DNA of 52,341 bases from Candidatus Omnitrophota bacterium (GTDB lineage: Bacteria > Omnitrophota > Gorgyraeia > Gygaellales > Profunditerraquicolaceae). Under the pieces are notes generated by a model. That model was not told where the DNA came from and made no database searches. It was given only the letters and a program-made list of their open reading frames with translations. Made by a program: the position numbers and the translations under genes. Position 1 is the first letter of the stretch. Every line of letters starts with the position of its first letter. Of this stretch, positions 6,039-52,147 are shown in pieces. The DNA lies in assembly GCA_028712505.1 (NCBI GenBank), contig JAQTQC010000003.1:53056-105396 (forward strand). Direction: 5' to 3'.

Positions 6039-6716
6039 TCAACGCGGTGTGTTATTGATCAGGCTGGCGAAATAACCCGCTCCAAAACCATTATCAATAT
6101 TCACTACTGTTACCCCCGGAGAACAACCGTTTAACATAGATAAAAGCGCGGCTAACCCGGAAAAACTTGATCCATACCCGCAGCTGGTGGGGACAGCAAT
6201 AACTGGCGATTTGGCCAATCCACTGACCAGGCTGGCTAAAGCGCCTTCCATTCCGGCTACGACAATAATTACTTTAGCCTTTTTTATTTTGTTGACATTA
6301 CTCATCAACCGATGAACTCCTGCAACACCGACATCGTAAAGTTTATCTACCCGGTTCCCCATCACCTCTAATGTTTGTGATGCCTCTTCAGCTATCGCGA
6401 TATCGCTGGTGCCTGCAGAAATGACCAGAACCCGTCCCTTAAAAGATTTCTTGGGTTTAGCCAAAAAATAACCGATTTTCGCCAGGGGGTTATACCTTAG
6501 GACAGGAATGGATTTATTTAAGAAGGAGAATGTTTCCTTATCTAGTTTAGTTAATAAGAGGTCTTCTTTTAAGTTGATTATCTTTTGAGCTATCTTTTTT
6601 AGGTGTTTTTTATCCTTGCCTGGAGAATAAACTACCTCCGCAAACCCTTTTCGCCTTTTTCTGTCTGTGTCCAACTTGGCAAACCCCAGATCGCAGAAAC
6701 CTTTTCTTACGGACAT
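6039..6716 (-). CDS. larB: LarB, nickel-pincer cofactor biosynthesis (AIR carboxylase-like)
   Basis: LarB carboxylates and hydrolyses nicotinic acid adenine dinucleotide, the first step to the nickel-pincer nucleotide cofactor of lactate racemase-type enzymes. The C-terminal PurE-like domain is clear, with AGTSDIAIAEEA, YDVGVAGVHRL, PTSCGYGSSFSG and NIDNGFGAGYFA. At 225 aa it is shorter than usual (about 245-250). The protein begins near the DLGFA-x-LD segment, and the helical N-terminal stretch is missing. Only four bases separate it from the upstream HTH gene. larC and larE are not in the window. Its position next to nickel-dependent acs genes is suggestive, but I know of no role for this cofactor in CODH/ACS. 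Confidence 0.85.
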   Translation of the reverse strand: MSVRKGFCDLGFAKLDTDRKRRKGFAEVVYSPGKDKKHLKKIAQKIINLKEDLLLTKLDKETFSFLNKSIPVLRYNPLAKIGYFLAKPKKSFKGRVLVISAGTSDIAIAEEASQTLEVMGNRVDKLYDVGVAGVHRLMSNVNKIKKAKVIIVVAGMEGALASLVSGLAKSPVIAVPTSCGYGSSFSGLAALLSMLNGCSPGVTVVNIDNGFGAGYFASLINNTPR

Positions 6717-6720
6717 CTAT

Positions 6721-7032
6721 TTATAAACCCCGGTAAACAAGAAAACCAAGAAGGGCGATTAAAAATGCTGCAAGGATATAAAAATCATTGAAATAAAGAA
6801 AATCATATAAACTATCCTGCAGAGCCTTCTCTTCTTTTATCTGGCATTCTGGATGTTCATTAAGGTGAGCTTTTTTATATTGCTCCACCTGTTCTTTCTT
6901 AAACCTTAAATAAAGTCCCCCTATTTTATAGGCTGGGATTATTCCCTTTTCCGCTAGGTCTAAAACATCTTTTTCAAACACACCCAGAATAACTGATACA
7001 TCTCTAACTGTAAGTAGTTTTTCTTCAGCCAT
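6721..7032 (-). CDS. Excisionase/MerR-type HTH protein with a C-terminal membrane anchor
   Basis: This 103-aa protein has residues 6-55 with the helix-turn-helix plus beta-wing pattern of the excisionase/HTH_17 class: LLTVRDVSVILGV, then a second helix ending in AEKGIIPAYKIGG and a final FKKEQVEQY helix. A polar linker follows, and then one hydrophobic segment near residues 82-100 that ends in YRGL. It therefore looks like a DNA-binding domain tethered to the inner membrane with its N-terminus in the cytoplasm. It starts 6 bases after the bactofilin gene, whose own C-terminus carries a similar HTH domain. I do not recognise a named family. The target could be DNA or a protein, since this fold can also bind proteins. 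Confidence 0.75.
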   Translation of the reverse strand: MAEEKLLTVRDVSVILGVFEKDVLDLAEKGIIPAYKIGGLYLRFKKEQVEQYKKAHLNEHPECQIKEEKALQDSLYDFLYFNDFYILAAFLIALLGFLVYRGL

Positions 7033-7038
7033 AGCTTA

Positions 7039-7542
7039 TTATTTCCCTATTTTGCCCTCAGCAACCCAGCTATCAATCGCCTTACGTTCAAACTTCCAAT
7101 CGTTACCATCTTTATTTCCTGGCACCTTTCCTGAATTAGCCCATTCCATGATCGAATTCAACTCTACCTCCAAATACTTGGCCAACTGTTCAGGATTAAG
7201 AAAATCATGCAACATTGAACACTGCCCCTCAAGAATCGCTCCTTCGGCAATATTGAGTTTAGCTGGATAGATATGACCCTCTACGATTGCTTGTGGTAAA
7301 AGCGTAAGTCTTTCTTTAGCAGTGATCCTTCCTTTAACCCGACCTCCAACAATTATGTTATCCCCGACAATATCAGCGTTGATTACGGCTGTAGCCCCTA
7401 TAGTAAGATTGCCCCGGGTATCCAAGTTACCCTCAAACTTCCCGTTAATCCGCAGATTAACCGGATCTTTAAAAGTTAAAGTACCCTGCATTGCCGCATC
7501 AACATCTAAGGTTTTCTCTTCCAATTTCTTTTTAAACGCCAT
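7039..7542 (-). CDS. Bactofilin fused to a C-terminal excisionase-type HTH domain
   Basis: The ATG at 7542 is chosen because AAGGAGG sits six bases before it. An upstream in-frame ATG (7563) lacks this. The product is 167 aa. Residues 15-105 form the right-handed beta-helix of bactofilins (repeats such as GTLTFKDPVNLRINGKFEGN, TIGATAVINADIVGDNIIVG). These proteins polymerise without nucleotide and act as a membrane-associated scaffold. Residues from about 115 on (LNPEQLAKYLEVELNSIMEW through KAIDSWVAEGKI) match the layout of an HTH_17/excisionase domain, which is unusual for bactofilins. It overlaps mgtC by 11 bases and precedes another HTH protein. A role in linking DNA or an HTH partner to a cytoskeletal polymer is inferred. 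Confidence 0.85.
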   Translation of the reverse strand: MAFKKKLEEKTLDVDAAMQGTLTFKDPVNLRINGKFEGNLDTRGNLTIGATAVINADIVGDNIIVGGRVKGRITAKERLTLLPQAIVEGHIYPAKLNIAEGAILEGQCSMLHDFLNPEQLAKYLEVELNSIMEWANSGKVPGNKDGNDWKFERKAIDSWVAEGKIGK

Positions 7543-7999
7543 GAGTGCCCTCCTTGTTTTCAAGTTTAAGGTTATCTATAAGGCGGTCCTCTATGAAACG
7601 TAATAAATACAATACAAGCAAAACCAATACTGTGGTATAAACCGCTACCCTGATAAAACCACATCCTACTGCCAGGCCTATTCCTGCAACTACCCATAAA
7701 CTGGCAGCAGTAGTCAATCCTCTTACCCTTTCGGGCTCACGAATAATTGTGCCTGCGCCTAAAAAGCCAATCCCGGTGATCACGCCGGCGGCGATACGCG
7801 CTGGGTCTAATGCAACTCTATCCTTATATATATCAAAAACATATAGAGATGTCAACATGATAAGACAAGAACCCAAGGCTACTAATATATGCGTACGTAA
7901 GCCGGCATCTCTGCGGTGTACCTGACGCTCAAGTCCGATCAATCCGCTTAAAACCAGGGTTAATAATAAACGCATAATCATTTGAAAATCAGAAGACAT
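7532..7999 (-). CDS. MgtC/SapB family inner-membrane protein
   Basis: This 155-aa membrane protein has four or five hydrophobic segments and the MgtC signature: GLIGLERQVHRRDAGLRTH near the first helix, then AGVITGIGFLGAGTII and RGLTTAASLWVVAGIGLAVG. Family members act in magnesium-limited growth and can modulate F-type ATPase. Many free-living bacteria carry short versions such as this one, without the C-terminal ACT-like domain, and their role is unclear. Its end overlaps the bactofilin start by 11 bases, and it begins 12 bases after tsaD. No magnesium-responsive leader can be seen because there is no leader. Confidence 0.88.
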   Translation of the reverse strand: MSSDFQMIMRLLLTLVLSGLIGLERQVHRRDAGLRTHILVALGSCLIMLTSLYVFDIYKDRVALDPARIAAGVITGIGFLGAGTIIREPERVRGLTTAASLWVVAGIGLAVGCGFIRVAVYTTVLVLLVLYLLRFIEDRLIDNLKLENKEGTHGV

Positions 8000-8011: not shown

Positions 8012-9001
8012 TTAATTATTAAGCTGAGTATTTAAATAAAGCGTGTCGCGCGCCCCTTGTTTATAAAGAAAATAAGCCAAACCGCTAACCATGGCCGCAT
8101 TATCCATACATAAACTTATATCCGGGAAAAAACAATCAACTCCTGCATTGTTTGATGCTTCCAGTAACTTTTTGCGCAAACAATTATTTGCAGCTACTCC
8201 CCCTCCGATTAAAAGCTGTTTTACATCTTTACGTTTACAGGCAAGCAGAGATTTATTTACCAATACATTTATCGCGCTCTCTTGAAAAGAAGCGGCTATG
8301 TTGGAATTTTTTATCCCAGGTTTTGAACGGTTATCCTTTAAGCAATACAGGACGGCAGTTTTTATGCCGCTAAAACTGAAGTCTAATTCTCCTTTTGTAC
8401 CTGAGCAGGAAAACTTAATCCTATGCTTATCACTTTTTTTAGCTAATTTTTCAATTAAAGGTCCGCCGGGATAACCCAAACCCATGATCTTCGCAACTTT
8501 GTCAAACGCCTCTCCGCAAGCATCATCCTGAGTTTGTCCTAGTAGCCGGATATCGGAAAAATCTTTTAGATAAAAAAGGCTGGTATGTCCTCCGGAAACT
8601 ACCAGAGCTACGCAGGGTAATTTTATATTCTTGTGGCAAAGAATACTGGCATAGATATGACTATATACATGATTAACCCCTAACACCGGTTTACCTAAGC
8701 TTAATGCCAGGGCTTTGGCAAAAGAAACTCCCACTAAAAGCGAACCCGGCAACCCTGGACCGGTAGTAACCGCGATCAAGTCAATATCCTTTTCTTTGAT
8801 CTTGGCTGTTTTAACTGCCTCTTTGTACACCTCGGCGATGCTTTCTAACTGCAAACGCGAAGCTATCTCTGGAATTACTCCTCCGTATTTACTATGTAGC
8901 CTTAAACTTGACTCAACTACATTAGCCAGGATCTTTTTCCCATCCCTAACTATGCCGACCCCGGTTTCATCACAGGAAGTTTCAATTCCTAAAACAATCA
9001 T
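8012..9001 (-). CDS. tsaD: tRNA N6-adenosine threonylcarbamoyltransferase TsaD
   Basis: TsaD transfers the threonylcarbamoyl group to A37 of ANN-decoding tRNAs. This is a universal modification made with TsaB and TsaE, which are not in the window. The 329-aa protein starts with LGIETSCDETGVGI and has the metal-binding H111-x3-H115 (HVYSH), GPGLPGSLLVG (81-91), the GEAFDKVAK region and the C-terminal MDNAAMVSG with the third metal ligand. The first ATG overlaps the deacetylase gene by four bases (ATGA). It is in the middle of the gatC-acsE run. Confidence 0.96.
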   Translation of the reverse strand: MIVLGIETSCDETGVGIVRDGKKILANVVESSLRLHSKYGGVIPEIASRLQLESIAEVYKEAVKTAKIKEKDIDLIAVTTGPGLPGSLLVGVSFAKALALSLGKPVLGVNHVYSHIYASILCHKNIKLPCVALVVSGGHTSLFYLKDFSDIRLLGQTQDDACGEAFDKVAKIMGLGYPGGPLIEKLAKKSDKHRIKFSCSGTKGELDFSFSGIKTAVLYCLKDNRSKPGIKNSNIAASFQESAINVLVNKSLLACKRKDVKQLLIGGGVAANNCLRKKLLEASNNAGVDCFFPDISLCMDNAAMVSGLAYFLYKQGARDTLYLNTQLNN

Positions 9002-14422: not shown

Positions 14423-17400
14423 ATGAACAAAAAAACCCCAAAATTTAAATCAAAATATTATCTAAACGGACAGGATCAGTTTGTCATTGAAAATTACAAC
14501 TACTCCAAACCGTTTGCTAATTTCTTTCCTGGAATTGCCGGAAAATACGGCGTCCCGATGTGGGTTTTCTACGTCAATCGCGGACAATGTATCTCCAGCT
14601 TCGGAATTAAAGATAAAGACCAGGCTATTCTGGAATTTTTTCCGGCAAATAAATCCTGGCAGTTTGTTTCTGCTCAAGGTTTCCGTACTTTTATTAAGAT
14701 CAAAACCGCGAAAGAACCGCTTTACTACGAACCTTTCCACAACGGATATGCAAACCTTAAATACCAGATAACCAACTCTATGCGGATAGGTTCAAGCCAG
14801 CTTATCATTGAGGAAGAGAACATGACTTTGGGTATTAAAACCCGGGTAGAATATTTTAATATCCCCAATGATACCTATGCTGGATTGAGCCGGATTGTAA
14901 GCGTTGAAAACACGGGTGGTAAACTTAAATCTATACAGCTTATTGATGGACTGCCTCAAGTCGTTCCTTACGGTACCCACAATTTCTTCTTAAAAAAGAT
15001 GGGCCGCACTATTGAGGCCTGGATGAATATCGATAACTTGGAAAACGATATCCCTTTTTATAAACTTGCGGTTGATCCAGCCGATCGACCGGAAGTAGTG
15101 CATATTGACGGTGGAAACTTCTATCTTGGTTTTCATTTTAAGGGGGCTAAGGCGGAAATCATCCGTCCGATCGTTGATCCTGAAGCTGTCTTTGGGTCAA
15201 TTACTGATTTCTCCTACCCCGCTCAATTCTTAAACAACACCAAATTCACATATCCTGCAAAACAGATGCCTAAAAGCAAGACTCCTTGTGCTTTGCTTTT
15301 AATGAACCTGGAATTGAGGCCCAAGGAACAAAAAACTTTTTACTCGATTATCGGTCAGGCTCGTAATGTTAAAACTTTAAATACCTCAGTTCCCAAAATC
15401 ACGAAATTCGGTTACATCGAGAGAAAATTAAATGAAAACCTTGAGCTTATCCAGAGATTAAAAAATGACGTCTTGACTAACAGCAGCTCTAAAGAGTTCA
15501 ATTTATACTCCGGGCAGACTTACCTTGATAACATCATGCGCGGAGGATATCCTGAGATTTTTAAATCCGGACTGATATTTTATCTTTATTCGCGCAAACA
15601 CGGCGATTTAGAAAGAGACTATAACAAGTTTCAGCTACAGCCTACCTATCTATCTCAAGGTAATGGCAACTACCGGGATGTAAATCAAAACCGGCGGAAT
15701 GATTGCTGGTTTAATCCTGAGGTGAAAGACGAGAATATAATCTTTTTCATGAATTTGCTTCAGGTTGACGGTTTTAACCCCTTGGTGGTAAAACCTGATA
15801 GTTTTCTGCTCAAAGAAAACCTCGATCTATATGAATTGCTCGAGACTATAGTTGACAAAGACGGCATAAGGAAACTTGAGCCATATTTAAAGAAACCTTT
15901 TACCCCGGGAGAATTAATCTTTTTTGTCGAAGAAAACAAGATAAAGCTTAACCTGTCCTATGATGATTTTCTGGATGCTGTTCTTTCCGCTTCTTTAAAA
16001 ACCCAGGAAGCAGAACACGGAGAAGGATTCTGGACTGATCACTGGACTTACAACCTAGACTTGATCGAAAGTTATCTGGGGATATACCCGGAAAGATTTA
16101 ATGAATTATTCTTTGAAAAGAAAGTTTTTACTTTTTACGATAACGCTGAAGTGGTTAGACCCCGCAGCGAAAGATATATCCTGTATAACGGCAAGCCCCG
16201 GCAATTACACTGCCTTACTCTTAACAGCGCGAAGAAAGAGATGCTCTATAACCGCCAACATAACCCGCATCTTTTAAGAACGCAGCATGGAAACGGCGAG
16301 ATTTATTATACCACGCTTATTGCTAAACTTTTGAATCTTGCGGTTAACAAATTAGCTTCTTTGGATCCTTTTGGCATCGGTATTGAAATGGAAGCCGGCA
16401 AACCCAACTGGTTTGATTCTCTTAATGGCCTACCTGCCCTCTTTGGTTCATCTACCTGTGAAACCTTTGAACTTAAGCGTTTGCTAAAAATGATAAAATT
16501 AGCATTGGAGCAGTCTAAAGAGAAGGCAGTAGAACTCGCTGAAGAAACCCGGGATTTCATCAAACAACTTTACCTAATTTTAAACGAAGACAGCTTCTCT
16601 TATTGGGATAAAAGCAACACCTTAAAAGAGACTTATCGCCATAATAATCAAATGGGGTTCTCTGGTAATTTAGCATACGCGGATACCAATGAGTTGCTCT
16701 TATTCATCAATTCTGCCTTAGTAAAAGTTGAAACCGGATTAAATAAAGCATTTAACAAATCAAAAGGCACTTATGATTCATATTTTATCAATGAAGTAAC
16801 CGAATTTGATCTGCTTAAAGACCATTACCTAAAACCTAAAAAGTTCAGGCAAACACCTGCTCCCTTGTTTTTAGAAGGACAAATGCATGCGCTGAGATTA
16901 TGCCAGGAGCCCAGAGAAGCTTTGGCTATTTATAAAGCAACCCAAAAAAGCCCCCTCTTTGATAAAAAGTTAAAGATGTATAAGGTAACGGCCGCGCTTA
17001 AAAGTATGCCCGAGGAGATTGGGAGGTGTCGGATATTTACTCCCGGATGGCTGGAAAATGAGTCTGTCTGGCTGCATATGGAATATAAATATATCCTGGA
17101 AATGCTTAAAACCGGATTAACTAAGGAATTCTACGCTGAATTCAAGAATGTACTCATCCCTTTTCTTAACCCTGAGAAATATGGCCGTAGCATCTTGGAA
17201 AATTCATCTTTTCTGGCAAGCAGCGCTTTCCCTGATAAGAAATTGCATGGAAATGGCTTTGTAGCCAGGCTTTCAGGTTCGACTGCGGAATTCCTGCAAA
17301 TTTGGCTGACTATGAATGCCGGCAATAACCCGTTCTACCTGGATCACAACAAGCAACTCAACCTGACATTTAAACCATCCCTGCCAGGTTGGTTATTTAG

Positions 17401-17623
17401 CCGCAAAGGAGAATATTCTTTTAACTTCTTGAGTTCGGTAAAGGTAACTTACCACAACCCGAAAAGAAAAGATACCTTTGGCAAAAACAGCGTCAAGGTA
17501 TCTAAAGTAATCCTTTCTGAAGACGACAACTCTATAGAGATAGATTCTGCGAACATCCCTTCAGTCTACGCTCAGAAAATCAGGTCCCGGCAAATTAATA
17601 AAATCGATATCTACCTGATATAA
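14423..17623 (+). CDS. Large glycoside phosphorylase-like protein (GH94/GH149/GH161-type)
   Basis: This is the only plus-strand protein gene, 1066 aa, with no signal peptide and so presumably cytoplasmic. The N-terminal third looks like the beta-sandwich of inverting glycoside phosphorylases, and the rest like an (alpha/alpha)6 barrel. Stretches typical of proteins annotated as cellobiose-phosphorylase-like are GNGNYRDVNQNRRND (about 410-424), GEGFWTDHWTYNLDLIESYL (about 533-552) and EAGKPNWFDSLNGLPALFGS (about 656-675). Acidic residues in the first and third are candidates for the general acid. GH94 enzymes are usually about 800 aa, and the size fits GH149 or GH161 (beta-1,3-glucan phosphorylases) better. 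The substrate cannot be read from sequence. No Shine-Dalgarno is seen. Confidence 0.65.
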   Translation: MNKKTPKFKSKYYLNGQDQFVIENYNYSKPFANFFPGIAGKYGVPMWVFYVNRGQCISSFGIKDKDQAILEFFPANKSWQFVSAQGFRTFIKIKTAKEPLYYEPFHNGYANLKYQITNSMRIGSSQLIIEEENMTLGIKTRVEYFNIPNDTYAGLSRIVSVENTGGKLKSIQLIDGLPQVVPYGTHNFFLKKMGRTIEAWMNIDNLENDIPFYKLAVDPADRPEVVHIDGGNFYLGFHFKGAKAEIIRPIVDPEAVFGSITDFSYPAQFLNNTKFTYPAKQMPKSKTPCALLLMNLELRPKEQKTFYSIIGQARNVKTLNTSVPKITKFGYIERKLNENLELIQRLKNDVLTNSSSKEFNLYSGQTYLDNIMRGGYPEIFKSGLIFYLYSRKHGDLERDYNKFQLQPTYLSQGNGNYRDVNQNRRNDCWFNPEVKDENIIFFMNLLQVDGFNPLVVKPDSFLLKENLDLYELLETIVDKDGIRKLEPYLKKPFTPGELIFFVEENKIKLNLSYDDFLDAVLSASLKTQEAEHGEGFWTDHWTYNLDLIESYLGIYPERFNELFFEKKVFTFYDNAEVVRPRSERYILYNGKPRQLHCLTLNSAKKEMLYNRQHNPHLLRTQHGNGEIYYTTLIAKLLNLAVNKLASLDPFGIGIEMEAGKPNWFDSLNGLPALFGSSTCETFELKRLLKMIKLALEQSKEKAVELAEETRDFIKQLYLILNEDSFSYWDKSNTLKETYRHNNQMGFSGNLAYADTNELLLFINSALVKVETGLNKAFNKSKGTYDSYFINEVTEFDLLKDHYLKPKKFRQTPAPLFLEGQMHALRLCQEPREALAIYKATQKSPLFDKKLKMYKVTAALKSMPEEIGRCRIFTPGWLENESVWLHMEYKYILEMLKTGLTKEFYAEFKNVLIPFLNPEKYGRSILENSSFLASSAFPDKKLHGNGFVARLSGSTAEFLQIWLTMNAGNNPFYLDHNKQLNLTFKPSLPGWLFSRKGEYSFNFLSSVKVTYHNPKRKDTFGKNSVKVSKVILSEDDNSIEIDSANIPSVYAQKIRSRQINKIDIYLI

Positions 17624-33574: not shown

Positions 33575-36500
33575 TTATTTTTCTTTCTTGATAACGGTGA
33601 GGAAGTTGTTTACAATTCGGGGGTCAAATTGAGTTCCGGATGCCTTTTTGATCATTTCCAGCGCCTTGGCCTTAGTAAAAGCCTTATGGTACGGCCGGTC
33701 ACTGATCAAGGCCTGGTAAACATCCGCAATGGCGATAACCCTAGCCCCAACTGGTATATCTTCTCCCCTGATACCGCTGGGATATCCTTTACCATCCCAT
33801 CTTTCATGATGATAAAAGATAAAGGGGATCAAAGCATGTAAAAACTGAATCGGACGGATTATATCTGCCCCGATCTGCGGATGTTTTTTAATCTCCTCAA
33901 ATTCTTTCTTATTAAGTTTACCTTTTTTAAGCAGTATGTTCTCGCTTATACCGATCTTGCCTAAATCATGCAGCATAGCCGCCTGTTTTATCAATTCAAT
34001 ATCTTCCCTGGGGAGGCTCAGGCTTTTGGCAATTTCTGTAGCATAATGCACTGTGCTCTCTACATGTTCCCCGGTATAGTGATCTTTTAATTCAATGGTC
34101 TTGGCAAACGCAAAAATTGATTCTGTAAGCCCTTGTTTTGATTTCATAGTGAGCTTATCGATTGTCTTCTTTAGCGTCTTTACCCCTCCCCCTGCTTTAG
34201 CAATCTTTCTTTTTCCAGAAAAGTTATTCATATCCAGAGTAGAATAAGCACGGTTACCACCCTGCTCTTTAGCTTTATTAAGCACCGTATTGGCTAAATT
34301 GACTAGGTCTGTCCCGCTCTTAGCCCTATCTTCCGGAAATGATACAGCTGATAAACTCAATTTTAATCTTACACTTTGTTTTTGGTTTCCGAAATTGATA
34401 AAGTTCAACGATTCCAGCAACCTCTGGGCCATACTAAAAGCCGCATCCCTGCCTAATCTCGGTGAAATGATCAGGAATTCTTCCCCGGCATAACGTATTA
34501 GGGTATCGTACCTGCGCACCATCCGCTTGAGCTGCCGGGATAATTGTTTTAAAACTAAATCTCCGAAAGCGATGCCATAAACATCATTTATGGATTTAAA
34601 ATAATCTATATCCAGCATGATAATCGCTAGACTATGCGCAAACCTGCGTGTACGATGGAATTCTACCTCCACCACATCTTGCAGGTAACGACGGTTATAA
34701 AGCCCGGTCTGTGAATCAACCAGTGAGATACCTTTTAACTTTTCATATGATTTAAGCAGTTCTTGATGTAGTTTACTTTTTTCTAATTCCGCCTTTTTAT
34801 GCAAAGAAACCTCCTGCAAAAGGTCAGCAGTGCGCTCCTCCACGATTTCTTCCAAGTGCTCGCGGTAACGTCTTAAACCCTCCTCAATCTTTTTCCTCTC
34901 GCTGATATCGCTATTTACCTCAGCGACTAACCATTCACCGTTTTCATCCTGAAAAGGAATAGTCGTCACTGAAATCGGACGGTTATTTTCTTTAGGCAGA
35001 ACCTCCTGGCTGATCACGGTTTTCTTGGTCTTGAAAGACTTCTCGAGAGCACAATCGGAGCAAGGAGTTTTACGGTCCATAAAATAATCAAAGCACTGTC
35101 TACCTTCCCATGGTCCATATACTTTTGCCCATTCCGGATCTATATAGCGGATGTAATAATTCTTATCTATAATATCCAGCCCGGTCTTAGTCGAACCTAA
35201 AATAAACTCTATCTGCTGGCGTAATCTTTTTGCCTGTAATTCCGCCGCCTCTTTCGATTTGACTTCGGATTCTAATTCTTTTGTCCGATGTTCAACTAAA
35301 AGCTCGAGTTTTTCACGATACACCCGCAGCTCAGACTCATTTTCTTTATTCCGGGTGATGTCGCGATTACTAGCCCTGCGGCCGAGAAGCTTGCCTTCTT
35401 TATTATAAATTGGGACGCAGACATGGCTAACCCATACAATCTTGCCGCTGCGGTTGACTATACGAAAATCGATTTCCAATTTCGTACACTTCTCAGTAGC
35501 TTCTTTTACCTGCTTGTGCAATTTTTCAACGTCATCTTTATATATGATCTTCTCGATTAAGGCTGGATCCTGCATAAAATCATCCGGCGTAAAACCCGTA
35601 ATCCGTTCGCAGGAAGGGGATACATAAATCATCCGATTATCCATGCCCTGCCAATATTCCCAGCCATAGGTAAAATCGGCAATAGTACGGAATCTCTCCT
35701 CACTTACACGCAAGGCTTCTTCGGTCTCCATACGTTTCGATATATCGCGCGCATACTCTATTACTCCAACGAGCTTCTTGTTTTTATCATCGAACATCGG
35801 AAAACTATAAAGATCGAGATAGCCGTTGTTGCCATTCCCGTCTACAAACGAGATAACCCTGGAGGCTGGTTTTAAAGTTTCCAGAGTCTCCCTGACAGGA
35901 CAGATCTTGCAAGGTTTATCTGCTCCATGAAAGGCCTTATAACATTTTTTACCGACCAGGGGCATATTATGCGCATGCCATTTCTCCTTAGTGGGGTTGG
36001 CTCTCAAAACGTTTAAATCAGTATCCAAAACACTGATTCCATCCTGGATGCTGCTGATCACGCAATTCAAGAAACTGCCGGTGGCAAGCAGTTCTTCTTC
36101 CGCTTTAGCGCGGTCACGTATTTCTTTACGCAGACTCTCGTTAAGGCTGGTCAGCTCTGCTGTCCTGACCTTAACCCTGATTTCAAGCTCAGAACGGATA
36201 TCTCTTTGTTTTTCCTCCTCTTCTCTACGCTCGGAGATATCCCTGGCAATACCGATTGTCCCGATTACTTTACCTTGATCATCAAAAATCGGAGTTTTAA
36301 CAGTCTCTATCCAGGTGTCTTCATTTTCCTTACTAACCAGCCTCTCTTCAATACACTTGCACTTCTTGTTGTTTATTACTTCAAGATCATCCGAACGATA
36401 ACTCTCCGCTAGATCTCTTGGCCAAACGTCTAAATCAGTCTTACCCACAATTTCATCGGCCTTAAAGCCACAAGCCTTAGCAAAAGCTTCGTTGACTACG

Positions 36501-36685
36501 ATAAACCTGCTATTGATATCTTTGAGCCAAGCCATATCCGGAATATTATTCAAGATAGCCTTCTGCTGAAGCTCGGTATTGCGTAGCTTCATGATTGTTG
36601 ATTCCGGACTATTCTTAAGATTATCAAACTTGGCCAGGGCATCTTGACCTGACTTAGTTTGATTTTTTTCCTTTTGATTTTCCAT
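33575..36685 (-). CDS. Four-PAS sensor with GGDEF and HD-GYP domains
   Basis: This 1036-aa c-di-GMP protein has no clear membrane segment. The order is PAS at about 40-150, 205-315, 325-445 and 490-595, separated by coiled coils, then GGDEF (655-820) and HD-GYP (850-1035). The GGDEF active loop reads AGEEF (733-737), so the first Gly is Ala. A putative inhibitory RxxD (R724-D727) is kept five residues before it. The phosphodiesterase part is intact: HD at 906-907 and the HHERWDGKGYPSG motif (959-971). PAS2 and PAS4 share Cys-x10-Cys-x2-Cys (C248/C259/C262 and C531/C542/C545). It probably degrades c-di-GMP in response to a redox or small-molecule cue. It follows rpoD by 18 bases and has no Shine-Dalgarno. 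Confidence 0.9.
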   Translation of the reverse strand: MENQKEKNQTKSGQDALAKFDNLKNSPESTIMKLRNTELQQKAILNNIPDMAWLKDINSRFIVVNEAFAKACGFKADEIVGKTDLDVWPRDLAESYRSDDLEVINNKKCKCIEERLVSKENEDTWIETVKTPIFDDQGKVIGTIGIARDISERREEEEKQRDIRSELEIRVKVRTAELTSLNESLRKEIRDRAKAEEELLATGSFLNCVISSIQDGISVLDTDLNVLRANPTKEKWHAHNMPLVGKKCYKAFHGADKPCKICPVRETLETLKPASRVISFVDGNGNNGYLDLYSFPMFDDKNKKLVGVIEYARDISKRMETEEALRVSEERFRTIADFTYGWEYWQGMDNRMIYVSPSCERITGFTPDDFMQDPALIEKIIYKDDVEKLHKQVKEATEKCTKLEIDFRIVNRSGKIVWVSHVCVPIYNKEGKLLGRRASNRDITRNKENESELRVYREKLELLVEHRTKELESEVKSKEAAELQAKRLRQQIEFILGSTKTGLDIIDKNYYIRYIDPEWAKVYGPWEGRQCFDYFMDRKTPCSDCALEKSFKTKKTVISQEVLPKENNRPISVTTIPFQDENGEWLVAEVNSDISERKKIEEGLRRYREHLEEIVEERTADLLQEVSLHKKAELEKSKLHQELLKSYEKLKGISLVDSQTGLYNRRYLQDVVEVEFHRTRRFAHSLAIIMLDIDYFKSINDVYGIAFGDLVLKQLSRQLKRMVRRYDTLIRYAGEEFLIISPRLGRDAAFSMAQRLLESLNFINFGNQKQSVRLKLSLSAVSFPEDRAKSGTDLVNLANTVLNKAKEQGGNRAYSTLDMNNFSGKRKIAKAGGGVKTLKKTIDKLTMKSKQGLTESIFAFAKTIELKDHYTGEHVESTVHYATEIAKSLSLPREDIELIKQAAMLHDLGKIGISENILLKKGKLNKKEFEEIKKHPQIGADIIRPIQFLHALIPFIFYHHERWDGKGYPSGIRGEDIPVGARVIAIADVYQALISDRPYHKAFTKAKALEMIKKASGTQFDPRIVNNFLTVIKKEK

Positions 36686-46057: not shown

Positions 46058-48256
46058 TTATTGCGCGCCGGATTTCTGTTCACTGACAGACTGGTCAAAA
46101 CCAAATTCATTCTCAGGAAAAGCCTTAAGCCTAAATACAAAATAAACTGTAGTACCTGTATCTTCTTTTTTATTCAGCGTAAGATCCATTTCCCAACAGT
46201 GCAAATCCCGGGTAAAGGTATATTCCTGCTCCTGTGAACCGCTGTCAAGCGTACTCGTCTGTTTAAAGTTATAACGTTGGTACATCTTGAATTTCCACTT
46301 CGGGTTCAGGCGCCAGTTAAAACCAAAGGTAACTTCATTTTTACCTTTTCTTTCATAACGCTGACCAAGACTAAAAGACCGCTCTTTTCCTAGATCAAAA
46401 ATTAAATCATAATTAGCTAACGAAAACTTATTATAGTTTACGTTTGTATGATCTGAGTGCTCATAAGTTACCTCAGATTCTACCCTCATCCAGGAATACG
46501 GCAATATCTTAAGTTTAAAAAGAATATCCGAAAAGTTGTCCTTAAGATTCTCTCCGGTGCGCGGAGTAAGTATCGCATTATCTCCTGTCTTAGGGTCGAG
46601 CACATAGTCAGTAGTAATCAACAAATCCACTAAATCGACACTCTGCCCCTTACGTTTGGTTTGTATCTTATTAGACAAACTTAAGGTAGCAGTATTACCT
46701 CGGTGTATATCATCAACATCATCGATCTGTTTTATATTGCTGATCGGTATAGTCGGCACATGAGTATATAGATATCCCACGCTCGGAGTAATGATGTGGC
46801 GCAGTCCATTGATGTCTAGGCCGAGAAAATTGGTTTTGGCTTTATAGGTGCGGAAAAACTTGGTACTCACATCCATGCCGCTATAAAAAACAGTCCGGAT
46901 TATTCCGTGCTGACCGTTTTCGCCTTTATCATACAGGGTTTGACGACTGGCGACAAATGGCTTTAACCGGATAAAACTTATTCTCGTAGGCAAAGAAAGT
47001 GTGTTTGTTGTATCAAGGCGGGTTGAGGAAACATCGTTAGCTGTTACAGGTTCTGTAGTCGCCTTTTTATTATAGGAACCGAATTGAGTTGAATCTTCAA
47101 AATATAACGGAGTATTTCCTAGCTGCAAACTTGGCAGGTTATAATTTATTTCCGGCATCTTATCCAATTGATCAAACCAGTGGTTAGTGCGTTTTTGCAA
47201 GAGTATATCCAAGCTGGAATAATCAAAAGCGTGATGGAAAAGACCGTAGCTTAAAGGTTCAGAATCTTTTTCGTATTCACGGAAAAAATAATCCTTAAAA
47301 ATATTATGGTTTGCGTCATACTTCCTTCGCTCATCCACGATTTTATAATATTCCGCGGTAAAATTAGTACGCTCATCGATATCCCACCTGTGCCGCCAAC
47401 GCATAAAATAACGCTGGAACTCCGTAGGCGCGCCTGCCGGCTGGTTATCAGGTTTTTCATTGGTATAATAAAACTTGAAATCACCTTTACCTAAGAAAGT
47501 CTTGAAATAATTTACCTCAAAACCTTCACCCCAACCCAGCTTACTGCGGTAATCAAGAAAAACAAGGGCATTTGCCTTCTCTGTAAGGTTATAGCGCCAG
47601 GCGCTTAAAAGATACGGGCCCCAATCCTTACGCTTGCCCGGCTCAACCTGCACATGCATAATCGGTTCTTTCATTGAATAGTTAAATTGAGGCAGATAGA
47701 GAACTGGTACTGTACCCAGATAAAGAGTGGTTTGTCTGGAACGCACCTTATCTCCAGGAGACATGCTGATCCTTTTAGACGCCATGCGGAAATGCGGATG
47801 GTCCATGTTACAAGTAGTAAAATAACCTCCTTTTGCTACAAATTCGCTGTCACTTACCTTCTCCACTTTTTTGGCCTTGCCAAAATAAGGATTAGCCCGG
47901 AAATCAGCATTATAAATTACGCCGGTCTTATTCGTAAAATCATAGACTATTTTTTCCCCGGTAATCACCCCATTTACATCCTCAAGGCGGGCATTACCTT
48001 CAGCCACGCCCTCTTTTGACTGCATATTAACCTTCATTTTGCTGCAGGTCAATTTCGAGCCTTTATAGATAACTTCGATATTACCGGTAGCAACAACCTC
48101 TTTATTATCGGCAGAATATTCTACATTATCACCGTTAATGATTATCGGGGATTCTTTACTGTCCGCAGCAGATGCCAAATCAACAGAAGAAATAAAAACA
48201 ACCAGCATAACTCCGGAGAAAAACAGCCTATTTAATTTTAAGAACCTATTTAGCAT
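46058..48256 (-). CDS. lptD: LPS assembly outer-membrane protein LptD
   Basis: LptD is the barrel that puts lipopolysaccharide into the outer leaflet. The 732-aa protein has a signal peptide (about 1-30, cut after ASA). An N-terminal OstA/LptA-like beta-jellyroll lies at about 36-150 ([20 protein letters not shown]), then the conserved [12 protein letters not shown], and a barrel from about 200, including [13 protein letters not shown]. Two cysteines at about 71 and 149 are in the N-terminal part and one is near the C-end, fewer than in the E. coli protein. The barrel does not end in Phe but in a polar tail. The gene shows that the cell has LPS, and it overlaps the transaldolase gene by 11 bases. 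Confidence 0.93.
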
Positions 48257-49880: not shown

Positions 49881-50876
49881 TTAGGCAGGGCAGAAACAAA
49901 CCTTATTCTTTCCCGTTTCCTTTGCCAGATATAAAGCCTGATCAGCCATCTCAATCAAATCTTTCATATGCTCAGTATGATCGGGATAAGTGGAAACACC
50001 GATACTGACCGTAACTTTTAATTCTTCATCATAAGCCTTAATTGTCGAAGCCTCGATTGCCTGACGGATACGTTCGGCGGCAAAAGAAGCCTGCTCCTTA
50101 TCTGTTTCCGCCAATACTATAGCCAACTCCTCACCGCCGTATCGTCCGATAAAATCTATCTGCCTGACCATATCGCCTATAGTCTTGGAAACTTGCCGCA
50201 GTATCGCATCACCAACCAGATGCCCATAACGATCATTGAATTGCTTGAAATTATCCAGGTCGATCATCAGAAAACAAAGGTGCAGCTTATTCTTTCTGGA
50301 ACGTTTAAGCTCTTCACTGAAACGTTCCAGAAAATACCTGCGGCAATAAACCTGGGTCAACGCATCAGTAATCGCCATCCCCTGGACCTTCTGATAAAGA
50401 TGTGCCCTTCTGAGCCCGATCAAAAGTTGTTGCACCAGAATCCCGAATTTTTCCTTATCCTCCTCAGAAATCCCGTCCACTGCCAGATACCCCGCAGTCT
50501 GGTTCTCTTCGGTATTTAAAGGAAATACGGTATAATCTTTATATTTGCCTAAGTTGGCACTGTCTTTTATATACTGGCATTCTTTAAAGCCGATATGCTT
50601 CCTAAGATTTTCATAAAAAATAGTAAAAATCTTTTCTTCATCCAGCCCTTTGCATATATCTTTAGTCAGTTCATAAAGCGCGAGTGTTTCCATAAAGATT
50701 TTATTCAAACGTAGATTCTCGGAATCTAAAGCAAGCTTGTTTTCTTTTAGACTATCCAACTCATTAAGCAAAGAGGTTTTTTTAGCTTCTCTGCGCTTGA
50801 AACGGACGGACAGAATGTCGAATAAAAAAATATTCCAGCTAACGGCGAAAATCAAAAATAATATCAGATAAAGCAT
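49881..50876 (-). CDS. Membrane-anchored GGDEF protein (GGEEL, I-site present)
   Basis: This 331-aa protein has one N-terminal membrane helix (about 2-22), a short coiled coil, a small GAF-like region (about 65-160) and a GGDEF domain (168-331). The active loop is GGEEL (247-251), with a product-inhibition RxxD (R238-D241) five residues before it. Loop position 5 is Leu where Phe is usual, so activity is likely but not certain. It overlaps the neighbouring GGDEF gene by 13 bases and shares its layout, which suggests an old tandem duplication. Signal is unknown. Confidence 0.9.
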   Translation of the reverse strand: MLYLILFLIFAVSWNIFLFDILSVRFKRREAKKTSLLNELDSLKENKLALDSENLRLNKIFMETLALYELTKDICKGLDEEKIFTIFYENLRKHIGFKECQYIKDSANLGKYKDYTVFPLNTEENQTAGYLAVDGISEEDKEKFGILVQQLLIGLRRAHLYQKVQGMAITDALTQVYCRRYFLERFSEELKRSRKNKLHLCFLMIDLDNFKQFNDRYGHLVGDAILRQVSKTIGDMVRQIDFIGRYGGEELAIVLAETDKEQASFAAERIRQAIEASTIKAYDEELKVTVSIGVSTYPDHTEHMKDLIEMADQALYLAKETGKNKVCFCPA

Positions 50877-52147
50877 ACCCGGTTTCTTCCCTTTCGCTTA
50901 GCATCATACATGGATTTATCCGCTTTCTGGATCAGCTCATCGTCATCTTTTGTATCCAGCGGCAGACAGGCCAGCCCAATCGATACCGTAACCGATGTAT
51001 TCTGACGGCGCAGCAAGATCTTCTCTCTTCCAATCTTCTGGCGTAATTCCTCTGCCACCTCCAAAGCCCTCTGCTTATCTATCTCCGGAAGCATAACTAA
51101 GAATTCCTCGCCGCCAAAACGGCATAACAAAGGATTTAAAAGGCTCAAAGATTCTTTTAATAAGGAACTAACTTTCTTCAAGACGATGTCCCCAGCAGTA
51201 TGTCCGAATTTATCATTGTATTGCTTGAAAAAATCAATATCGATCATCATTAACGCCAGGCGCTGATCCAGGCGCAGGCAGCGCTTTGCCTCATCCTTTA
51301 GCCTGCTGATAAAATACTGTTTAGTGTAAAGTCCAGTCAAATCATCATGGATAGCCAGATCCTGGGTTTTTTGAAAAAGCAGACTGTTTTCCAGGGCTAC
51401 CGCACCTAACCCTGAGACTAGGGAAAGGAAACGTAAATCGTCCTGGTTAAAGGATCCCCTTTTATCACTCTCCAGGCGCAAAAGTCCAAGCAAAGAATGG
51501 TGGCTGATCAACGGCGAGCTAATCAGCGATAAAATCGGACGCATCTCCTGGCTACGCAAGACATCCAGATCGAAACGAAAATCATTCTTTAGGTCTTCAA
51601 TAAGAAGTTCCCGGGAATGCCTTAATACCCAATAATCGAAGATATCCCCTTCTTTAGAAAGGATGACCATCTGGCGGTCTTCTTTGATAGAATGGATAAG
51701 GCTTAATTTCTGAGTATGGTTGTCCAGCAGGTAGAAAAGCGCCGAACCACAAGAATTTGAAATCAGGGAATAAACCGTAGAGCTTAAGACATTAACAACT
51801 ACCTCCAGCCTCAGACTCCTGTTTAATTCCTCAATTACCTTTTTCAGGTTATTATAACGGGTAATCCTGAATTTAAGCGCCGCGCCAAACTCCCGGGCCT
51901 TGAGATTTTCGGAATTGGTAATGTTTATCTGTTCTTTGATATTCTCAAGCTGGGATTCAACCAAAGAATTCTTTTCGGAAAAGAATTTCAATAGATAGAA
52001 AAAGATGGAGATATTGGACAGGAGGAAAAAAATGAATACGAATGGATTAATTCGTTGATGAAGAATAAATAAGTTAATTGCAGTAGCGACAATGACGGAA
52101 AGCGACAAAAGTAGGCAAAGCTTCTTCCGGGAGATTTTCTGGTGCAT
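50864..52147 (-). CDS. Membrane GAF-GGDEF diguanylate cyclase (GGEEF, no I-site)
   Basis: This 427-aa protein has two N-terminal membrane helices (about 8-30 and 34-55), a coiled coil (60-110), a GAF domain (about 110-255) and a GGDEF domain (265-427) with a canonical GGEEF loop (345-349). The residues five upstream do not form RxxD, so product inhibition through an I-site is not expected. With its partner downstream, the pair offers one feedback-limited and one unrestrained c-di-GMP source. It begins 32 bases after the ABC ATPase gene. Confidence 0.92.
   Translation of the reverse strand: MHQKISRKKLCLLLSLSVIVATAINLFILHQRINPFVFIFFLLSNISIFFYLLKFFSEKNSLVESQLENIKEQINITNSENLKAREFGAALKFRITRYNNLKKVIEELNRSLRLEVVVNVLSSTVYSLISNSCGSALFYLLDNHTQKLSLIHSIKEDRQMVILSKEGDIFDYWVLRHSRELLIEDLKNDFRFDLDVLRSQEMRPILSLISSPLISHHSLLGLLRLESDKRGSFNQDDLRFLSLVSGLGAVALENSLLFQKTQDLAIHDDLTGLYTKQYFISRLKDEAKRCLRLDQRLALMMIDIDFFKQYNDKFGHTAGDIVLKKVSSLLKESLSLLNPLLCRFGGEEFLVMLPEIDKQRALEVAEELRQKIGREKILLRRQNTSVTVSIGLACLPLDTKDDDELIQKADKSMYDAKRKGRNRVCFI

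Follow-up and report, generated by a model that had tools for sequence, protein, structure and literature searches.

Published descriptions present bactofilins as minimal beta-helix proteins whose tails are short and disordered, and little is understood of how they select and retain partners. For BacA of Caulobacter crescentus a membrane-targeting sequence (MTS) has been described, and in Caulobacter the overproduced membrane-bound client PbpC can replace this MTS (PMC12448750). In the BacNOP-PadC-ParAB system of Myxococcus xanthus, a bactofilin carries a client-binding site in a C-terminal extension: the tail of BacP binds PadC (PMC12448750; PMC5703909). The MreB filament is docked by RodZ with an N-terminal cytoplasmic HTH of the Xre type (HTH_25), which binds MreB and itself, not DNA (PMC6946637). 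A further HTH protein with a protein ligand is the MerR-like CbpM, which binds the J-domain of CbpA and was judged to be non-DNA-binding, the corresponding Tyr and Arg being replaced (PMC4063869). For its part in chromosome segregation RocS, which has an N-terminal wHTH and a C-terminal membrane element, must bind both the membrane and DNA (PMC11500499). Here we describe a gene pair from Omnitrophota in which a bactofilin and a small membrane protein carry the same type of HTH domain.

A bactofilin with a C-terminal winged helix

The window, which is the whole stretch of 52,341 nucleotides analysed here, contains on the minus strand a gene (7039-7542, ATG start at 7542) for a 167 aa protein that fuses a bactofilin to an HTH_17 domain. 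The Bactofilin domain (PF04519) spans residues 12-108 (7219-7509, minus strand) and was found by Pfam with 85.8 bits against a cut-off of 27.9; the HTH_17 domain at residues 114-163 (7054-7203, minus strand) scored 35.0 bits against a cut-off of 27. Both domains were present in all 105 diverse homologues scanned. The fusion gene is the only PF04519 match in the window's genome, and the four HTH_17 matches of this genome are the bactofilin, the membrane partner encoded next to it and two small stand-alone proteins.

The AlphaFold2 model of the bactofilin, built on 105 diverse homologues, has a beta-helix core from approximately residue 18 to 108 (pLDDT about 88-96), for which Foldseek returned the canonical bactofilins BacA (2n3d; TM-score 0.84 by target length, the best match) and T. 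thermophilus bactofilin (6rib and 6ria) as the top solved structures. With these the protein shares the Bactofilin domain, the beta-helix and, in the taxonomic order to which the window belongs, an MTS-like N-terminus, and like other bactofilins it may polymerise through its core without a nucleotide. Most bactofilin tails are reported to be short and poorly conserved (PMC12448750), whereas the Omnitrophota protein ends in a folded and conserved winged helix, modelled with helices at 117-124, 128-137 and 153-161 (pLDDT about 80) and a wing at 143-152 with strands 143-145 and 148-152. The nearest folds of this tail are the RdfS excisionase, DNA-bound BldC and DNA-bound RacA, with weak E-values and Foldseek probabilities of about 1. 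Its turn and recognition helix are acidic, and E125 and E133 are conserved.

The N-terminal residues MAFKKKLE (7519-7542, minus strand) combine hydrophobic and basic residues and resemble the sequence MFSKQAKS of C. crescentus BacA. A hydrophobic residue is found at positions 2-4 in all 90 near relatives and in 49 of 80 distant members; the 31 distant members that have no such residue may thus need another anchor.

A tail-anchored partner with the same domain type

The membrane partner gene (6721-7032, minus strand) encodes 103 aa with an N-terminal HTH_17 domain, a linker and a C-terminal membrane helix. HTH_17, at residues 6-54 (6871-7017, minus strand; 35.6 bits), is the only HTH family to pass its cut-off in this protein and is carried by all 90 partner homologues scanned with Pfam. 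The AlphaFold2 model, built on 90 homologues, shows a winged helix (helices 9-16, 20-29 and 46-56, wing strands 35-37 and 41-45), then a linker modelled with low confidence, and after it a juxtamembrane helix (66-81) and the membrane helix (83-101). Its nearest folds are BldC, RacA and MerR regulators, with RacA (5i44) among the top matches (probability 1.00, TM-score 0.66 by target length); CbpM (3ucs, a weak match) and the pSK1 Par domain come lower down. A membrane-like stretch of 19 residues is present in 165 of 168 partner homologues and is followed by a median of one residue, so the protein is tail-anchored; its HTH domain would lie on the cytoplasmic side.

The preliminary description of this DNA, made from the sequence alone, had proposed an HTH_17-type domain at the C-terminus of the bactofilin and at the N-terminus of a single-pass membrane protein. 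Pfam finds the domain at both places, the models fold both as winged helices, and the partner ends in a hydrophobic helix, so this part of the description is correct. Two findings had been named that would refute it, a bactofilin tail modelled without a winged HTH and a pair missing from every related genome; neither occurred.

A juxtamembrane motif, D-F-[FL]-Y-F-N-D-F-Y-[IV], together with the membrane helix covers partner residues 77-103 (6724-6804, minus strand). Among 90 diverse homologues D77, F78, N82 and F84 are at least 90% conserved and Y85 is invariant. The motif, DFFYFNDFYI in the window, is better conserved than the linker or the membrane helix and is retained in lineages that have no bactofilin. 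Such conservation suggests a contact with a further membrane-side partner or with lipid.

Distribution and gene neighbourhood

We searched 285 sampled Omnitrophota genomes with profiles for the two proteins: the fusion profile matched in 239, the partner profile in 252 and both in 237, the Fisher test of this co-occurrence being descriptive since it ignores phylogeny and is inflated by adjacency in incomplete genomes. Within the genus, the fusion is present in all 23 members searched, the window's genome included, and in one of them it is interrupted by masked bases. Almost all of the fusion matches listed span both domains. Conservation in 239 genomes rules out a chance or misread open reading frame as well as a frameshift or an assembly fusion. 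The best-matching records are named Omnitrophota with the exception of two named only "bacterium" and one Pacebacteria record. The latter, PFLP01000057.1 (labelled Candidatus Pacebacteria; L044), encodes an Omnitrophota-type bactofilin-HTH protein with 84% identity over the full length and is probably a misbinned contig. Seven plasmid records matched the bactofilin query, none of them covering most of it; a Leptospira plasmid bactofilin, annotated with approximately 146 aa and matching without full query coverage, was considered as a fusion example from outside the phylum and is unsupported.

Of 222 loci, 219 have the partner gene immediately downstream of the bactofilin gene and in the same orientation, at a median distance of 15 bases. 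One of the other three stops at the edge of its contig, and two (L024 and L073) show one and the same N-masked junction of a single genome, beyond which the downstream half of the partner can still be read in the same frame; the merged 271 aa open reading frame seen there is an artefact of the masked bases. In the window the gap is 6 bases (7033-7038), and the upstream mgtC family gene (7532-7999, minus strand; Pfam MgtC, 145 bits) overlaps the start of the bactofilin gene by 11 bases (7532-7542). Joint production had been suggested before from this overlap and this gap; both are confirmed, and the phylum-wide conservation of adjacency and order, which holds at every readable locus, strengthens the suggestion.

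Upstream in the same operon is tsaD (8012-9001, minus strand; Pfam TsaD, 296 bits), a conserved neighbour, and downstream is larB (6039-6716, minus strand; NCBIfam LarB, 282 bits against a cut-off of 175), which part of the class has conserved at this place. The usual order in the window's class is tsaD-mgtC-bactofilin-partner-larB, with cdhD and acsV next in part of it. mgtC is a conserved neighbour in one class and is missing there in others. In other classes (families f47, f51, f56 and f59; L226-L236) the pair is intact and tsaD, mgtC and larB no longer adjoin it; the genes that follow the pair there look like those for an acyl-carrier-protein synthase and a YdjC-like deacetylase. Since the pair stays together where these neighbours differ, the conserved unit is the bactofilin-partner pair and not the operon. 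Among the conserved neighbours of the pair we found no par-type or other segregation genes.

Elsewhere in the window, two long genes (14423-17620, plus strand, 1066 aa; 46061-48256, minus strand, 732 aa) gave no Pfam match at an E-value of 0.001. A PAS-GGDEF-HD signalling protein of 1036 aa (33578-36685, minus strand) and a GAF-GGDEF protein (50867-52147, minus strand) are also encoded, their domains pointing to cyclic-dinucleotide signalling in a small genome.

Loss of the bactofilin

We inspected 19 genomes picked mainly because the fusion profile had no match. Bactofilins of any kind are absent from 18 of them, and the nineteenth (G128) has the fusion; the fusion is thus the bactofilin of the phylum. 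G128 had appeared to be a genome with the fusion only, which we reject: its partner is too divergent for the threshold and is encoded next door (L283). The other apparent case, G213, is a weak match. Almost all Omnitrophota seem to build their only bactofilin with an extra winged-helix domain, next to a small membrane protein that has a matching HTH.

At least 12 genomes (families f9, f15, f32 and f37) keep the partner at the usual place of the pair, mostly directly after mgtC or tsaD and with the bactofilin gene cleanly absent. These partner-only loci (L238-L248 and L250) belong to G045, G061, G069, G116, G169, G195, G198, G212, G234, G267, G276 and G277, and any bactofilin was absent from all nine of the 12 genomes that were tested. 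Since about a dozen genomes are of this kind, we reject the idea that the partner strictly requires the bactofilin. A partner that is kept after bactofilin loss has some role independent of the bactofilin and is more than its second half; a mechanism must above all account for this asymmetric loss, in which the partner outlives the bactofilin.

Sequence features of the two HTH domains

We compared the turn and recognition helix, taken as the stretch from -13 to -1 before the conserved Gly, with the same region of stand-alone HTH_17 domains. This control comprises 22 domains, drawn from ten Omnitrophota genomes, which fall into a few families and are only predicted to bind DNA. The mean net charge of this region is -2.92 in the bactofilins (n = 170) and -2.14 in the partners (n = 168), against +2.45 in the stand-alone domains (n = 22). 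For the wing the mean charges are +0.3, +2.2 and +3.0, respectively. Of the stand-alone domains, 72% have the canonical Tyr in the recognition helix; neither bactofilins nor partners commonly do, Met, Leu and similar residues taking its place. An acidic residue (Glu or Asp) comes next in 88% of the bactofilins and in 72% of the partners. Both domains keep a basic residue in the wing, which is Arg in 100% of the partners.

The acidic turn and recognition helix and the missing Tyr lower the probability of canonical DNA binding, with the strongest case for the bactofilin. They do not disprove it: in a winged helix the wing can be the main DNA contact, that of the partner is basic with an invariant Arg, and the DNA-binding domains of RacA and BldC are among the nearest folds.

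For covariation between the two proteins we computed mutual information from 168 bactofilin-partner pairs and, as the reference, from the same sequences re-paired at random within clusters of relatives. Only the block combining both HTH domains clearly exceeded this reference, with a z of 6.5; core x HTH reached 2.1 and the remaining blocks -1.0 to 1.3. The leading positions are W134 and V160 of the bactofilin with L6, G39 and F44 of the partner, and their signal comes mostly from one clade (families f25, f27, f30 and f43); because this single clade dominates it, the covariation between the HTH domains is a hint only. Members of this clade (for example L185-L188, L191-L195, L199-L207 and L223-L224) share substitutions that go together in the two HTH domains: in the bactofilin W134 becomes L and V160 becomes A, and in the partner LRF becomes LRL and L6 becomes Y.

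Discussion

RodZ with MreB is a described system that may work alike, and the partner's HTH may bind the bactofilin filament as that of RodZ binds MreB. RodZ, however, has an Xre-type HTH_25 and a periplasmic part, whereas the partner has a MerR/excisionase-type HTH_17 and lacks a periplasmic domain; moreover, unlike in RodZ-MreB, the Omnitrophota filament itself carries an HTH of the partner's type. The partner is not RodZ: the HTH family is wrong, and a membrane helix at 83-101 of 103 residues leaves no room for a periplasmic domain. The genome of the window encodes MreB and a separate HTH_25 protein, the HTH_25 match being on another contig. As both occur in genomes of this group, the pair would be an additional cytoskeletal-membrane link and not a substitute.

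The likeness to BacNOP-PadC-ParAB lies in the client-binding bactofilin extension. BacP, however, has a disordered tail and a soluble, ParB-like client in PadC; the Omnitrophota bactofilin ends in a folded HTH and has a membrane protein as its partner. A partner of the PadC/ParB type was rejected, as the Pfam scan found no ParB-like (ParBC) domain in the partner or the flanking genes. RacA and RocS share the N-terminal winged helix of the RacA type with the partner, and RocS also the C-terminal membrane element (PMC11500499). RacA and RocS are, however, DNA binders with coiled coils, whereas the recognition helix of the partner is acidic and the partner is coupled to a bactofilin. A coiled coil of RacA or RocS length was not predicted by AlphaFold2 in the partner, only the linker and the short helix 66-81. 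By these comparisons the pair is outside the RacA/RocS family. In CbpM a fold of the MerR type serves to bind protein, and the Tyr and Arg that would contact DNA are replaced; CbpM differs from the partner in what it binds and in having no membrane helix.

We tentatively propose, at slightly less than an even chance, that the pair is a membrane-docked bactofilin scaffold in which the HTH modules are protein-docking domains. The filament would form through the beta-helix and display one winged-helix docking module per bactofilin subunit, and the cytoplasmic winged helix of the 103-residue tail-anchored partner would hold it at the inner face of the membrane, either by direct HTH-HTH contact or via a shared partner. 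Both domains would descend from MerR/excisionase-type DNA binders that were converted to protein-protein modules, as is paralleled by the Xre-type HTH of RodZ and by CbpM. The adaptor would matter more in the distant members that have no hydrophobic N-terminal residue, and the scaffold could serve shape, wall synthesis or another purpose. In its favour are the joint occurrence of the two proteins in 237 genomes, the adjacency of their genes, also where tsaD, mgtC and larB no longer adjoin them, the acidic recognition helices of both and the hint from covariation. Domains, predicted folds, co-conservation, adjacency and acidic helices are thus observed, while the loss of DNA binding, the HTH-HTH docking, the cytoplasmic orientation and the scaffold function of the pair are all inferred. 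Replacement of the BacA MTS by PbpC is a direct functional precedent for the partner as a connector, and RodZ is a conceptual one. Several observations speak against docking: the window's bactofilin has an MTS-like N-terminus and may need no anchor, the partner outlives the bactofilin, the covariation stems from one clade among 168 pairs, and both domains keep a basic wing residue.

The persistence of the partner in several lineages without any bactofilin would fit a partner that is merely co-transcribed and serves another process, while the bactofilin HTH recruits clients, as the BacP tail does with PadC, or bundles filaments laterally. We consider this unlikely: the same domain type and the same acidic shift occur in both proteins, the two genes stay together even where every other neighbour is different, and a fusion-only genome is not established, given the divergent partner of G128 and the weak match of G213. 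A partner without a bactofilin would also fit an independent membrane-DNA link, and with it the tether of the preliminary description, in which filament and membrane protein would both bind DNA and so hold part of the chromosome at the envelope, much as RacA with DivIVA or RocS does. The partner's nearest folds, DNA-bound BldC and RacA with the DNA-binding domain of pSK1 Par lower down, agree with it, as do the layout shared with RocS and the basic partner wing (mean +2.2) with its invariant Arg. On the other hand, the turn and recognition helix are acidic in both proteins (-2.9 and -2.1 against +2.45) and lack the Tyr, the bactofilin wing is near neutral (+0.3), and segregation genes are absent among the conserved neighbours, so that we regard the tether as still more doubtful. 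Its fullest form, in which a phylum-wide bactofilin array of DNA-binding heads and its tail-anchored twin constitute a ParABS-independent chromosome-membrane tether with an unusual acidic recognition helix, is slightly less probable again. Of the preliminary description, the two domains, the fusion, the gene pair and the joint production are supported and conserved across the phylum; DNA binding by the heads is not supported, as the acidic recognition helices lower its probability without disproving it. The tail-anchored HTH architecture, the MerR-like fold and the co-transcription would also suit a membrane-bound transcription factor that the bactofilin sequesters and releases through HTH heterodimers; the recognition helix is acidic, however, no receiver, sensor or effector domains were found and no conserved target was identified, which makes this reading very improbable.

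In the searched literature, of which coverage is incomplete, we found no description of a bactofilin with a C-terminal HTH or of bactofilins in connection with Omnitrophota, and relative to this literature the phylum-wide HTH-bearing bactofilin is a new variant. In a largely uncultured phylum the bactofilin would come with its own permanent, folded docking module and with a single membrane protein conserved alongside it. The pair offers a specific two-component hypothesis for the coupling of bactofilins to the membrane, and it may be a second case, independent of RodZ, in which an HTH domain was turned into a connector between cytoskeleton and membrane.
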